The notes under the pieces are model-generated. The model was not told where the DNA came from, did no database searches, and saw only the letters and a list, made by a program, of their open reading frames with translations. Source: Bacillota bacterium (lineage in GTDB: Bacteria > Bacillota > Sulfobacillia > Sulfobacillales > Sulfobacillaceae). Taken from it: a stretch of 64,000 nt of DNA. This document shows, in pieces, positions 36,855 through 44,320 of the stretch. The position numbers and the translations under genes are program-made. The stretch covers positions 1-64,000 of the forward strand of contig JAKACZ010000009.1 of NCBI GenBank assembly GCA_021820965.1, given 5' to 3'. Every line of letters starts with the position of its first letter. The first letter of the stretch is position 1.

Positions 36855-37162
36855 ACTGAAAGAACGGCCGACAAAAAGACTCCCGTCGGCATGAGGCCTG
36901 GTTACTGGGCGGCACAGCCGAGTTGCACTTATTGCGTACTTAGTTCACCCGACTCATGGGCCAGGACACGCCGTCTTTTTTCATCGTTTCCCATACGTCT
37001 TTCCACCCATCACGTAGTTTGGCGCTTCACCATGGGTCGCACCCTCCGCATGACAATCCATACTCCCATGGGGATGAGCTTTAATGCACATGATGGGTAA
37101 CGATGGGCAGGAACCGAGGCTATCTTTGTGGTCACAAAAGGGTTTTAACAGTTCCCAACACG
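36855..37162. other. Intergenic leading into the IS607-type element
   Basis: About 300 bp; no gene. The left end of the IS607-type element should lie here but these elements lack clear terminal repeats and I could not fix it. Confidence 0.3.
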
Positions 37163-37192
37163 TTTACCTACGGTTATCCATTGTTGTATAAT
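37163..37192 (+). promoter_or_regulatory. Promoter of tnpA, likely giving a leaderless mRNA
   Basis: TTTACC (37163-37168), 18-bp spacer, perfect TATAAT (37187-37192). The A of the tnpA ATG (37199) is 7 bases after the -10 box, so transcription is expected to start at or within a base or two of the start codon, and no Shine-Dalgarno sequence is present. Confidence 0.6.
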
Positions 37193-37198
37193 TTAGGT

Positions 37199-37828
37199 AT
37201 GACTCGAAAACTTGTTGGCATTCGTGAAGCGGCGGAATTTTTAGGTGTAACCCCCTCGACGTTACGTCGATGGGAACACGAAGGAACGTTGTTGCCCGAT
37301 GAACGTACACCGGGGGGTTATCGACGTTATGACTTGGCGCGACTACGACCCGAACAGTTTCATCATCGAACCAACCCTCGCCAAACCGTCGCCTATGCCC
37401 GCGTATCAAGCCACGACCAGAAAGACGATTTGGCACGGCAAAAACAAGTGCTCGAACTGTACTGTGCCCGCCAAGGCTGGACCTTTGAGGTCGTGGCCGA
37501 CCTCGGGTCGGGGATGAATTATCACAAAAAGGGGCTCAAACGCCTGCTCCATGACATCCTGGCCGACCGGGTCGGTCGGCTCGTCATCACGCACAAAGAT
37601 CGACTCTTGCGATTGGGCGCGGAGCTTGTTTTCGCTATTTGTGAGGCCAAACAGGTGGAAGTCATCATTCTCAATCACGGCGAAGACACAACGTTCGAGG
37701 AAGAGTTAGCCCAAGATGTCCTCGAAATCATCACCGTGTTTTCGGCCCGGCTGTATGGCAGTCGCTCGCGCAAGAGCCAAAAATTGTTGGACGGCGTGAA
37801 GCACGCCGTCGAGGAGGCGTCCTCATGA
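37199..37828 (+). CDS. tnpA: IS607-family serine recombinase TnpA
   Basis: 209 residues. N-terminal MerR-like helix-turn-helix LVGIREAAEFLGVTPSTLRRWEHEGTLLPDERTPGGYRRYD (residues 4-45) is followed by the catalytic serine recombinase domain starting TVAYARVSSHDQKDDLARQ with the nucleophilic Ser, and KGLKRLLHDILADRVGRLVITHKDRLLRLG with the conserved Arg/Asp. The frame is intact, and the stop overlaps the tnpB start by 4 bases. It catalyses transposition through a circular intermediate. Confidence 0.93.
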   Translation: MTRKLVGIREAAEFLGVTPSTLRRWEHEGTLLPDERTPGGYRRYDLARLRPEQFHHRTNPRQTVAYARVSSHDQKDDLARQKQVLELYCARQGWTFEVVADLGSGMNYHKKGLKRLLHDILADRVGRLVITHKDRLLRLGAELVFAICEAKQVEVIILNHGEDTTFEEELAQDVLEIITVFSARLYGSRSRKSQKLLDGVKHAVEEASS

Positions 37829-38472
37829 TTCTGGCCCATAAAATTGCGCTCGATCCCAACGATGTGCAGGAGACGTATTTCCGCAAGGCGGCAGGGGTCG
37901 CGCGCTTTGCCTACAATTGGGCCTTGGACCAGTGGCAGCAGCAATATGATGCGTGGCAAGCCGACCCGACGTTGCCGAAGCCGTCCGAGGCAGCCCTGCG
38001 GCGTCAACTCAATGCCATCAAGCGAAACGAGTTTCCTGGGATGCTGGAGGTCACCAAGAACGCGCCGCAAATGGCCATCATGCAGTTGGGCCAAGCGTTA
38101 AAGAATTTCTTTGCCGGTATCGCGGAGTATCCCACGTTTAAGAAAAAGGGCCGACACGACAGTTTTACCCTGACCCATGACCAATTTACGGTCAAAGGGC
38201 AAAAAGTGCCTATTCCGAAGTGTGGCTGGGTTCGGATGCACGAATCGTTACGCTTTGTCGGGAAAGTGCTGGACGGCACGATCTCCCGGACCGCCGACCG
38301 CTGGTTTTTGAGTGTCACCGTTGAGATTCCCGATCCTCCCAGTATCCGCCGTGAAAATCAAGCGGTGGTCGGCGTGGACTTGGGCGTGTCGGCGTTGGCC
38401 ACGCTCTCGACCGGCGAGAAGATCAGGGGTCCGAAAGCCTATGCGGCCGCCCGGAGAAAGTTGCGCCAGTTA
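37825..38472 (+). pseudogene. tnpB: TnpB (RNA-guided nuclease), truncated
   Basis: Intact up to about residue 216: start MILAHKIALDPNDVQETYFRKAAGVARFAYNWALDQW, then NAPQMAIMQLGQALKNFFAG and FKKKGRHDSFTL of the wedge/REC part, and the first RuvC motif VVGVDLGVSALATLSTGE with its catalytic Asp. Homology stops after ARRKLRQLS near 38472, and the remaining frame (to 38712) reads through unrelated DNA that is the 3' part of an integrase gene on the opposite strand. RuvC-II/III and the zinc finger are missing, as is the omega-RNA that would overlap the 3' end. It cannot cut, so the TnpA gene has lost its partner. Confidence 0.85.
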
Positions 38473-38564
38473 TCGTGGTCCTGCGTTGTCCCAATTTGCG
38501 GCTCTAAATTTCCTTCAAAACGTCCTATTCATGCGGGTTGCGAGATTATCGGTGTTACGGAACG

Positions 38565-39563
38565 TCAGGTTCCGTTGTATAGCGGTTTTGGATGTGTTTT
38601 TAGAGTCTTCTGCGCCCGTCTGCGGCCTGTTGGGCTCGAAACTCTCTCCGAGGAAAGCAGGGCCCCTTCCATCTCGTCGGCCAGTTGTGCCCCATCGTTC
38701 GGAAACACATGACCGTACACTTGCCGTAAAGGCTACATTGGAATGCCCAAGCCGCTTGCTAACGACCACGGGGTTTTCCCGCTGACTCAGACTCTGCCCG
38801 GAAATTGCTGGCAGTCGAGGATTTAAATAGTCAGATTATTCCTCACCTCAAGGAAGCTGGCGAGGTTTTGTCGAAGTGCCGGGCTATGCTGGAATCTCCG
38901 AGAGGCACCGAGACGGTGTTAAAGCAAAGCCGAATGTCTTCCCGGCACCGGCCTGAGCTTGGTCGTCCGCTGGCTGGCCGACCGCGTCAACTGGCTCGCG
39001 GTGGTGGATGACCGTTTGCCGTGGGACCGGGATCGGGCTCGAATTGCGCCCAATGTCATCCTCCTCATGCTGGTCATCAATGTACGGATATATAGTTGGG
39101 ATCAGACCCCAGTCCACAGCGTCATGCAACGCTCTGTTCAACACTGTGTGGACGTATCGTATGGTCCGGGCACTCAGGCGCCGGGTTTGAGCCAAATCGG
39201 TATAGAATTGTTGAATCTCCAGCGGTGCGGAGACTTCTGAGCGAGATACTGCCCAATGCTCGGATACTGTGCGCAGCCGTTCCTCGGTAATCCCGCAGTG
39301 TTTTGGGCGTATGGTTCAAGGCGCCATTCATTCAAATAGTCAGCAAGGTTCTCCTCGCTCAGCGGCTTACGATTCGGGTCATCGCGATAGGTGGCCGCTT
39401 CCGTTTCGGCCCAGTTCTTGGCTTCCTTCTTCGTGTCGAAGGTCCGGTTCATTTCGAAGCGTTTCCCGTTTTCGGGGTCATAGCGCACCACCCGACCTTT
39501 CCAGCGGCCCAACGGGAGCTTGCGCGGTTCGACGGCGTAGCGTTCTTTCACACGGTTTGGCAT
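38565..39563 (-). pseudogene. Tyrosine integrase, frameshifted and interrupted by an IS fragment
   Basis: Minus-strand pieces in order: an arm-binding start MPNRVKERYAVEPRKLPLGRWKGRVVRYD...FDTKKEAKNWAETEAATYRDDPNRKPLSEENLADYLNEW (39563-39365); in another frame NHTPKTLRDYRGTAAHSIRALGSISL (about 39320-39235); then EIQQFYTDLAQTRRLSARTIRYVHTVLNRALHDAVDWGLIP (about 39215-39105); then the IS1634-type fragment; then VVSKRLGHSNVAFTASV and, after a one-base deletion, YGHVFPNDGAQLADEMEGALL (38790-38640), with a stop at 38565-38567. The catalytic Tyr region is present but the RHTHA box is lost. Three frameshifts plus the insertion make it dead. Confidence 0.8.
38816..39083 (+). mobile_element. 5' fragment of an IS1634-type element
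   Basis: Nearly identical to 16559-16828 (left end, leader and first ~67 codons of the transposase). It breaks abruptly after ctggtcatcaatgt. A small frameshift near codon 16 and the loss of the rest of the element show it is a remnant. It interrupts the integrase gene. Confidence 0.85.
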
Positions 39564-41125: not shown

Positions 41126-41446
41126 TCAGCCGGCTTTAATCGTAATCTGGTAGGTTCTTCCGTCGTGTTTGAGTGTATAGGTGTTCAAGAGGTCCCGAGC
41201 TTTCGACAACTGCTCTTCCTGGCCGGCAAGAAAGGCACTGTTATCCTCGGTCATGAGGTTTAGGTGCAAGATCACTCCTTGGAACAAGTCATGTTTAATC
41301 ACCCAGTCCAACTGGGGTCCCTTGCCGGTGTTCAAGGTTCCCTGGTCAAAAATGTCCCCGCTACGACTATAGGGTTCGTGAATATATGTTTCCAACTCCA
41401 CAAGCTTGCTATCATCAAAGGTCAGTGTGCCACTCCAATCGGCCAT
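41126..41446 (-). CDS. Small protein of unknown function
   Basis: 106 residues; ATG 41446 is chosen because GGAGGTGTGG lies 8 bases upstream. Sequence MADWSGTLTFDDSKLVELETYIHEPYSRSGDIFDQGTLNTGKG..., ending LKHDGRTYQITIKAG, suggests a compact beta-rich protein without cysteines, signal peptide or membrane segment. Its start is 43 bp after the end of the glutaredoxin domain of the upstream gene, and a terminator follows, so the two form an operon. Function not recognised. Confidence 0.65.
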   Translation of the reverse strand: MADWSGTLTFDDSKLVELETYIHEPYSRSGDIFDQGTLNTGKGPQLDWVIKHDLFQGVILHLNLMTEDNSAFLAGQEEQLSKARDLLNTYTLKHDGRTYQITIKAG

Positions 41447-41489: not shown

Positions 41490-42284
41490 TCAGTACAAGT
41501 TGAGTTGAGTCTTAAGACGGTGACGGTCAAGACCCACCAGGGTTAGGCCGTTAAAGATAATGACGGGAATGCCCCGTTCATCGCCGCGCAGTTGCCGCAT
41601 GGTCTCGACGTTTTTTGGATCGGTCAGGCTGTGGTCTGAATACCAAAATCCGTATTGAGTCAAGAAACTCTTGACGCCATTGCAGACACTTCAAGGCGGG
41701 GCCGTATATAACTCAATGTCGGGAAGCCACATGCGATTACCCATCGCCACCGACATCACCCGCGATCCCATCGGAACCTCCATACGATACAATACAAAGT
41801 AAACGGGGCCGGGGTCGCCCAAAAGCCACATCGACCGCAGTTCTCGGGTATCTCCTACGGAACTGTCGATGTCCATCACGGCGGTACCGTCCTGATACAC
41901 CCGCCGATCAAAGACAGTTACCGGTGCTTCCGCCCGAGTCTTCACCGAGGCGGGAAGTCGTACCCGGAACGAGAACTTTAACGCACCGGCCTTGTATTGG
42001 GCGCGAAGCGTTTCCGCCATCTCGTCGGTCTTAGCGACGATGACCAGGCCCCGATCTTCATCGGCCAGCCGGTGGACCACGCCAGGGCTGACACTGGTTT
42101 CCATTTCCGCCAGCCATCGGTTTGATTGCAACAACGCGTTGACCAAGGTTCCGCGCCCCTGGGCATTCTCGGGATAGACCGCCATGCCGGCCGGCTTATC
42201 GGCCACGACAAACGTCGGGCCTTCGTACCAGATCTCAAGCGGAACCGAGGCGATTTCAATAAGCGGCGTTTTATCCGTCGTCAC
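41490..42284 (-). CDS. RluA-like domain fused to a glutaredoxin domain through an in-frame TGA (candidate selenoprotein)
   Basis: Start GTG 42284 (AGGGAGGGGA upstream). Residues 1-110 resemble the RluA pseudouridine synthase fold: EIWYEGPTFVVADKPAGMAVYP, GTLVNALLQ, VVHRLADEDRGLVIVAKTDE; but the catalytic HRLD has become HRLA and the second half of the domain is missing. The frame meets TGA at 41693-41691 after DIELYTAPP and stays open for 66 codons to TGA at 41492-41490. Reading the TGA as residue 198 (Sec) gives DIELYTAPP-U-SVC-NGVKSFL, then LTDPKNVETMRQL and a GIPVIIFNG cis-proline and GLD segment: a complete glutaredoxin domain with a UxxC active site. No usable in-frame start follows the TGA. 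A SECIS-like hairpin lies just downstream. The alternative is a recent nonsense mutation of Cys (TGC/TGT) to TGA, yielding a 197-residue product and a decaying tail. Confidence 0.65.
41659..41675 (-). promoter_or_regulatory. SECIS-like hairpin downstream of the in-frame TGA
   Basis: On the mRNA strand GTCAAG-AGTTT-CTTGAC forms a perfect 6-bp stem with a 5-base loop, 15 nt after the TGA, within the codons for VKSFL. Bacterial SECIS elements are stem-loops placed shortly after UGA with a G among the first two loop bases; here the loop is A-G-U-U-U. The stem is short, so the assignment is tentative. Confidence 0.4.
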
Positions 42285-42460
42285 TCCCCTCCCTTTCTTG
42301 ATGGTACCTTACATTGTCGCGCTTTAAGGCACTTCAATCAACCGGTGCCGCTCGGCAGGCAAACCCAGCCATTCGAGCGACAAATTCGACGTCTCACCGA
42401 AAAACGCATGGCGCACTCGCGGCCCCCCCTTATCATGAGTGCAGAAGAGGAGGGAATCTC

Positions 42461-42886
42461 ATGGCCATCGACATGTGGGGGACGCATGAACCAGGTCAAG
42501 CACCGCTCTTATATGCCCCGCTTCCCCGATTGCTCAAGGAGATGCACCGGCGTCTTGAGCCGCAACACCCGCCTCTTTTGCATCAGCGGCGTGACTGGCA
42601 GGGACCATGGGACCGGGGCATCCGGCCCAGTTTCCTCCCGAAAATGGAGGGCATTGGGCGGGGTGAATGGCAGGGAGATCCGGTGTCGCCAGATCTGGCG
42701 GACCGACGGATTGAGATTACCGGGGCGACTCACGCGAAAATGCTGTATCCCGGCACTTGGTTTCCGCGACGGGGAGAGGTCGCGAGAAATCATTTGATGG
42801 AGGATTCGGCTACGGTGGAGTTCGCCCATTGCAAACATCCATGGTGTGGCGTGTTTATGACACACTCGGAAGGACTACCGGCGTGA
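42461..42886 (+). pseudogene. aceB: Malate synthase A, N-terminal fragment
   Basis: From ATG 42461 (GAGGAGGGA 6 bases upstream) the product starts like malate synthase A: PLPRLLKEMHRRLEPQHPPLLHQRRDWQGPWDRGIRPSFLPKMEGIGRGEWQGDPVSPDLADRRIEITGATHAKML. The last part corresponds to the family's DLxDRRVEITGPxxRKM just before INALNSGA and the FMADFEDS motif. After KMLYPG homology ends and an unrelated 40-residue tail runs to the stop. About 100 of about 530 residues remain, so it is truncated. It lies directly before isocitrate lyase, the usual partner in the glyoxylate shunt, whose second step must be encoded elsewhere if the pathway works. Confidence 0.75.
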
Positions 42887-43051: not shown

Positions 43052-44320
43052 ATGACACGATCATTAACGGAAGAGTGGCAGATTAGCCCTCGCTGGGCCG
43101 GAATCGAACGGCCATACACGGAAGAAGACGTGACACGTCTACAGGGATCGCTGGAGATAGAATACACGCTGGCTCGGCACGGTGCCGACCGCTTATTTCG
43201 GTTATTGTCGTCCCGCTCGTTCGTACGTACCTTGGGCGCGGTCACCGGGAACCAGGCAGTACAGGAGGTTAAAGCCGGATTGGAAGCTATCTATCTCAGC
43301 GGATGGCAGGTCGCGGCCGACGGAAACACCGCGCTTGAGACGTACCCGGACCAGTCGTTATATCCCGTCGATAGCGTGCCCCGCATGGTGCGGCGTATTA
43401 ATCGCGCCTTGGCCCGAGCCGATCAAACCGAGCACCTGGAGTCGGGTCAGGCGTCGCGCGACTGGTACGTTCCCATCGTCGCGGACGCCGAAGCGGGTTT
43501 CGGTGGCCCCCTCAATGTCTTTGAATTGGTGAAGGCGCTCATTGAGGCCGGCGCCGCCGCCGTACATTTGGAGGATCAATTATCATCTGAAAAGAAATGC
43601 GGGCATATGGGCGGAAAGGTCCTGATTCCGACGCGCCAGGCCATCCGCAATCTAACGGCCGCCCGGTTGGCCGCCGATGTGATGGGGGTTCCCACGCTCA
43701 TCATCGCTCGAACCGATGCTCAAGCGGCAACTTTAATCACCTCCGATATCGATCCCCGCGACCAGACCCGGCTGACCGGCGAGCGCACACCAGAAGGATT
43801 CTTTCGCGTCCAATCGGGGTTGGAGGCAGCCATCCAGCGGGGCTTGGCCTACGCACCCTTCGCGGATATGGTATGGTGCGAGACTTCGGAACCGGATGTG
43901 GGTGAGGCTCGAGAGTTCGCCGAGGGAATCCATCAAAAGTTTCCGGGAAAGTGGCTGGCTTACAACTGTTCGCCGTCCTTTAACTGGAAACGGAAACTGG
44001 ATGACAGGGAACTGGCGGCCTTCCAAGACACCCTGGCTGCTTTGGGTTACAAGTTCCAGTTTATCACCTTAGCCGGTTTTCACGCGCTTAACTGGTCGAT
44101 GTTCAATTTGGCGCAAAAATACCGCGACCACGGGATGGTGGCGTATTCGGAGCTTCAAGAGTCGGAGTTTGCGTTGGAAAGCCGGGGGTATACCGCCGTC
44201 CGCCACCAGCGCGAGGTGGGAGCCGGATATTTTGATCAGGTTTCGCTGACGATAAGCGGTGGGCAGTCGTCGACCACGGCGCTGACGGGATCGACCGAAG
44301 AAGCGCAATTCACGCATTAA
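43052..44320 (+). CDS. aceA: Isocitrate lyase
   Basis: 422 residues. The family signature [14 protein letters not shown] with catalytic Cys-183 is intact, as are WQVAADGN (near 86), [20 protein letters not shown] (metal-binding Asp), HLEDQL, RTDAQAA and YNCSPSFNW. It cleaves isocitrate to glyoxylate and succinate, allowing growth on acetate or fatty acids. Start ATG 43052 follows GGAGGCAAAGCG. The preceding malate synthase gene is truncated. Confidence 0.95.

Follow-up and report, generated by a model that had tools for sequence, protein, structure and literature searches.

A candidate selenocysteine-containing glutaredoxin fused to a degenerate RluA-type domain in Sulfobacillaceae

Organization of the locus

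The window, which is the whole stretch of 64,000 nucleotides analysed here, belongs to a genome of 4.63 Mb in 101 contigs (G000), and a search for relatives placed it in the same genus as assemblies that bear the names Sulfobacillus harzensis and S. acidophilus. Its minus strand carries an open frame that starts at a GTG, preceded by a probable Shine-Dalgarno sequence, and is interrupted by one internal TGA (Table 1). With this TGA read through, the product has 264 amino acids, with selenocysteine (Sec) at residue 198, and the frame ends at a second TGA where orthologues end too. Standard annotation would stop at the first TGA and report a 'truncated RluA protein'. The initial annotation had described one part of a glutaredoxin before the TGA and the rest after it, and an HRLD motif changed to HRLA in the RluA-like part; both descriptions match the sequence exactly. 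It had also claimed that no usable start follows the TGA. A TTG and an ATG in frame are in fact present there, but a product begun at either would be a fragment devoid of the active site.

Several other elements were noted in the window. The gene directly downstream of the fusion encodes a 106-residue protein that is kept in six loci, has no match in Pfam or NCBIfam, and is possibly co-transcribed with the fusion. On the plus strand, a remnant of a malate synthase N-terminus (43% identical to L047) adjoins an intact isocitrate lyase gene; relatives have a full-length malate synthase at the matching place (L043, L045, L047). Further away lies a transposon pair, in which an HTH/resolvase-like frame precedes one of the IS605 OrfB/TnpB type; the latter, of 295 amino acids, looks shortened.

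Table 1. Features of the fusion gene and its surroundings (positions in the window)
Feature	Position	Strand	Basis or remark
Candidate selenoprotein gene	42284-41490	-	single open frame, one internal TGA
Probable Shine-Dalgarno sequence GGGAGGGGA	42285-42293	-	adjoins GTG start; read from sequence
GTG start codon	42284-42282	-	
RluA/RluD-derived pseudouridine-synthase-fold domain, degenerate	41736-42260	-	about residues 9-183; PF00849, RluD profile, fold
Ala74 codon at catalytic-Asp position (HRLD to HRLA)	42063-42065	-	alignment with 8 RluD-like proteins
Glutaredoxin domain, YruB/NrdH-like	41493-41723	-	residues 188-264; PF00462, TIGR02196, fold
In-frame TGA, read as Sec198, first position of UxxC	41693-41691	-	orthologue codons
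Codon of resolving Cys201 (UxxC)	41682-41684	-	invariant, 27/27 aligned rows
Putative SECIS hairpin, stem GTCAAG/CTTGAC, loop AGTTT	41659-41675	-	RNAfold, synonymous-recoding null, orthologue pair counts, bSECIS rules
In-frame TTG after the TGA	41663	-	
In-frame ATG after the TGA	41600	-	
Terminal stop (second TGA)	41492-41490	-	
Gene of 106-residue protein	41126-41446	-	
Malate synthase N-terminus remnant	42461-42745	+	
Isocitrate lyase gene	43052-44320		intact
Transposon pair	37103-38712	+	

Conservation of the in-frame TGA

In relatives and in a genome collection we found 28 full-length fusions, the window copy included, from Sulfobacillaceae, one genome of the same order and two Bacillaceae. 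Twenty-six of them are distributed over 23 genomes of the class; the other two, from Bacillus pinisoli and Terrihalobacillus insolitus, were found by genome scan and are about 35% identical. The family, with either TGA or TGC, thus spans two classes of Bacillota. At the Sec198 position the codon is TGA in 22/28 genes and TGC in 6/28, and these 28 genes have no other codon at this position and no other stop in the frame: TAA and TAG never occur. A cultured relative, Sulfobacillus harzensis DSM 109850, is among the carriers of the TGA form. Among 398 sampled genomes of the phylum, no fusion was found outside Sulfobacillaceae, the other matches being ordinary RluD-type ones.

Taken by itself, the window copy could not be told from a gene with one recent stop, and might pass for a decaying gene in which a Cys codon mutated to a stop and left a truncated RluA-like product. 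The initial annotation had proposed to look at the orthologous codon and at dN/dS. Besides the sharing of TGA by Sulfobacillaceae and Bacillaceae genes, dN/dS downstream of the TGA is only 0.02-0.17 in close TGA pairs of related copies, which is far below 1 and similar to or below the upstream value; these estimates place everything 3' of the TGA under strong purifying selection. A conserved TGA followed by a sequence under such selection cannot be the outcome of a nonsense mutation, and we reject the pseudogene reading as far as sequence allows, leaving it the smallest probability of all the readings considered here. A mobile or viral origin was rejected as well: no relative was found in IMG/VR, and of 39 matching plasmid records none covered 80% of the query, those listed being RluA-type matches that extend over about half of the query at most.

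Copies of the gene can nonetheless decay, as seen in one relative (G007:C203; L065, L086/L087) where a second fusion copy is broken, with its parts in different frames. Genomes that carry the fusion also commonly have separate short frames of about 80-140 amino acids with glutaredoxin similarity and one TGA (e.g. G018:C28:56806-57021 and G017:C29:48114-48329); a short glutaredoxin-like frame of the source genome (C39:24250-24468) is without a stop.

A hairpin downstream of the TGA

Besides a free-energy clause, the bSECIS rules describe bacterial SECIS elements as stems of 4-16 bp with an apical loop of 3-9 nt that has a G in its first two positions and lies 16-37 nt from the UGA (PMC13188914). 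In the window, a 6-bp stem begins 15 nt after the TGA and its loop 21 nt after it, one base nearer than in most orthologues; this hairpin agrees with those of the rules that concern loop size, G position, distance and stem length. Most TGA genes have the form ACGAAAG-AGTTT-CTTTCGT, which begins 18 nt past the T of the TGA, and the Bacillaceae TGA genes have GCGAGAG-AGTTT-CTCTCGA and similar sequences, with the AGTTT loop kept and an AU to GC exchange in the stem.

We compared RNAfold predictions with those for random recodings that leave the peptide unchanged. Alone, the window hairpin is not significant (p 0.086), and a nonsense mutation would find no strong objection in it. Across the family, the mean z is -2.4 in 20 TGA genes versus -0.4 in 6 TGC genes. 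Stem positions are paired in 96% of cases in 18 TGA rows, versus 45-68% when the partner strand is slid, and in 62% of cases in TGC rows, where the pair of columns 8/24 is broken in 6/6. Covariation is thin, with one pair changed on both sides; the stem is nearly constant, which leaves few true compensatory changes. The view, put forward at first from the window alone, that the hairpin argues for Sec is thus borne out by its fit to the bSECIS rules, its presence in TGA genes and its loss in the six TGC genes.

Selenocysteine machinery and tRNAs

The machinery that such a reading needs, whose presence had also been named as a check, is found in the source genome: SelA, SelB, SelD and two tRNA-Sec with anticodon UCA. 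This again counts against a nonsense mutation. A strong SelA match occurs in 36/42 genomes of the order, and SelA was found in 5/5 genomes reached through their loci, both Bacillaceae included. Draft genomes show a few gaps: no SelA match was obtained in G023, despite its TGA gene and tRNA-Sec, nor did any tRNA-Sec hit reach E 1e-9 in G002, G024 or G123, despite a TGA gene and SelA in each. All in all, conservation, selection, hairpin and machinery strongly support the reading of the TGA as Sec.

The selD gene of the source genome (L153, G000:C56:94356-95279) has an in-frame TGA of its own, and SelD is probably itself a selenoprotein. The two tRNA-Sec(UCA) genes differ: one (L034, G000:C12:20786-20877) is of the family type, while the other (L033, G000:C73:140575-140665) is divergent, lies near an apparent recombinase gene, apparent fragments of transposases and what seems a PqqD-like gene, and is perhaps mobile.

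A third tRNA gene (L035 1503-1593; G000:C31:7625-7717) is shaped like tRNA-Sec, with a long variable arm, and has the Cys anticodon GCA and an apparent U73. It fits the known selC* class of tRNA-Cys (PMC7609411), recurs in seven relatives (L109-L115) and coexists with a canonical tRNA-Cys (L166 1592-1666). Decoding of UGA as Cys through selC* tRNA-Cys has been proposed for some Deltaproteobacteria (PMC7609411), and the presence of this tRNA would make the same conceivable here. Its anticodon being GCA and not UCA, it should read UGC/UGU, and we rejected it as a reader of UGA; moreover, both UCA tRNAs are called as tRNA-Sec, and SelA and SelD are present. UGA-as-Cys decoding is consequently very improbable, hardly more credible than the nonsense mutation.

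A pseudo-enzyme domain of the RluA/RluD fold

The N-terminal domain is recognizable as RluA-derived at the level of both profiles and fold. PF00849 matches residues 25-109 (E 3e-6), and TIGR00005 matches with E 2e-13 at 50 bits, against a family cut-off of 192.7. AlphaFold2, run on the 27 aligned rows, returned a confident two-domain model (pLDDT 94.1, pTM 0.91), in which residues 8-215 superimpose on RluD with Z 15.3 and rmsd 3.0 over 177 residues. The RluD matches as a set covered 177-187 residues at rmsd 3.0-3.7, and those to RluD and RluA folds together, for which Foldseek was also run, 163-192 residues at Z about 15.

The functional residues tell a different story. We aligned the fusions with eight RluD-like proteins from this genome and its relatives, each of them with HRLD and GRTHQIR. 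The catalytic position is non-Asp in 26/27 fusion rows (Ala in the window; L067 keeps Asp), and GRTHQIR is replaced by VGDTRELR in the window and by GDTxxLR-like sequences in all rows. The net charge of the domain core is negative in 27/27 rows (-3 to -16, about -9), versus +3 to +12 in the eight comparators. The family has kept invariant residues of its own, among them WYE and NRWLAxME. The degeneracy seen at first in the window copy thereby extends to the whole family, and these alignments support a family-wide pseudo-enzyme, as opposed to decay of the window copy.

RNA modification is unlikely because the catalytic Asp, GRTHQIR and the positive charge are lost, and we reject retained pseudouridine synthase activity given this motif loss and reversed charge. 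A subtler alternative accepts the selenoprotein and supposes that the RluA-derived domain still binds RNA, on the ribosome or a tRNA, and carries the redox centre to a target made of RNA and protein. Roles on RNA or the ribosome that involve no catalysis are established for some pseudouridine synthases, and the RluD fold is retained here; the uniformly negative charge, opposite to that of all eight comparators, and the loss of GRTHQIR make RNA binding improbable, if less so than the two alternative readings of the TGA. We infer that RNA is no longer the ligand of this domain.

A redox domain of the YruB/NrdH type

With the TGA read through, PF00462 matches residues 190-246 at 22.9 bits, which equals the gathering score, and the piece after the TGA scores below this cut-off when taken alone. 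In the model, residues 189-264 superimpose on small redoxins (BC3987, cGrx1) with Z 12 and rmsd 1.4-1.5. Among curated families, those of YruB, Uxx-star and NrdH-like proteins come closest, all below their cut-offs, with TIGR02196 first (36 bits versus 88.6). Thirty-four positions are invariant in the 27 rows, including C201 and the cis-Pro pair I239-P240, and position 198 is always U or C. The GIP and G-F-D motifs resemble those of NrdH and YruB, an indication and no more against glutathione use.

Gene neighbourhood and proposed function

In several loci (L050, L051, L053, L054, L057 and others), the fusion is immediately preceded, on its own strand, by a gene for a flavoprotein of the CoA-disulfide-reductase family, which the corresponding models match below their cut-offs. 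Bacillus pinisoli has a thioredoxin-like gene at this place, and the neighbours in the window's genus are isocitrate lyase and a small uncharacterised protein. Neighbours change between lineages, and a fixed operon partner was therefore rejected.

On sequence grounds, the gene very probably encodes a single 264-residue UxxC selenoprotein with a pseudo-enzyme domain. SelB and Sec-tRNA-Sec(UCA) would decode TGA 41693 as Sec, guided by the downstream hairpin. The Sec198 selenol would then attack a disulfide and Cys201 would resolve the mixed selenide-sulfide, with electrons probably drawn from a flavoenzyme similar to thioredoxin reductase or CoA-disulfide reductase, and not from glutathione. The RluA-fold domain would most likely serve as a docking module that chooses the redox partner or substrate. 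The precise activity is a more tentative matter: a glutathione-independent reductase of disulfides, or of CoA or another low-molecular-weight thiol, docked by the RluA-fold domain, is our working proposal, held at slightly less than even chances.

As for the Sec and Cys forms, their distribution on the protein tree requires three changes. Sec is probably ancestral, since TGA occurs in both Bacillaceae and Sulfobacillaceae, and the Cys genes do not result from SelA loss, since the genomes of all six TGC genes keep SelA. Three TGA genes (L049, L053, L054) group with five Cys genes in one clade, and their stem-loop (GACGAAGGC..GCTTTCGTC) differs from the usual one, possibly a mark of Sec regain; this clade and its stem-loop suggest either several losses of Sec or one regain.

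The broadest scenario is possible, although we hold it with still less assurance than the reductase proposal. A dead pseudouridine synthase would have become an acidic docking scaffold, for a CoA-disulfide-reductase-type flavoenzyme or for the substrate, in a selenium-based, glutathione-independent thiol system of acidophiles, and Sec would have given way to Cys and perhaps been regained, with SECIS elements lost and re-created. In extreme acidophiles that live in sulfide-mineral habitats, an RNA-modification fold would thus have become acidic, lost its catalysis and been paired with a redox enzyme. The family also offers a natural experiment, with Sec genes that have a SECIS and Cys genes without it, the latter in genomes that keep SelA.

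Comparison with known systems

The fused family of Sec-glutaredoxin and RluA-derived domain is apparently undescribed. NCBIfam and Pfam have no model of such a fusion, no report joining a selenoprotein and a pseudouridine synthase in this manner was found in the literature searchable in full text, and neither a 2026 review nor the deep-Sep paper mentions it.

Its parts have known relatives. With RluD and RluA, the N-terminal domain has the fold and a partial profile in common, and differs by its lack of the catalytic Asp, GRTHQIR and basic charge. The YruB family (TIGR02196) is the best redox match, but the fusion falls below its cut-off, has two domains and carries Sec for Cys. Uxx-star and the HUGP/GUXX-star fusion (NF041212, NF045501) likewise contain a glutaredoxin-like selenoprotein domain, fused in one case, but are matched well below their cut-offs (31 versus 66 bits and 18 versus 325) and the fusion partner is a different one. 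Finally, Sec-glutaredoxins as such were already known, as the initial annotation stated; examples are Clostridium oremlandii Grx1 and a Sargasso Sea Grx (PMC13188914, PMC1088965). They share with the present family the glutaredoxin fold, Sec in the first position of UxxC and a SECIS just downstream; whereas they are small and described as glutathione-linked, the redox domain found here is YruB/NrdH-like and joined to an RluA-fold domain.
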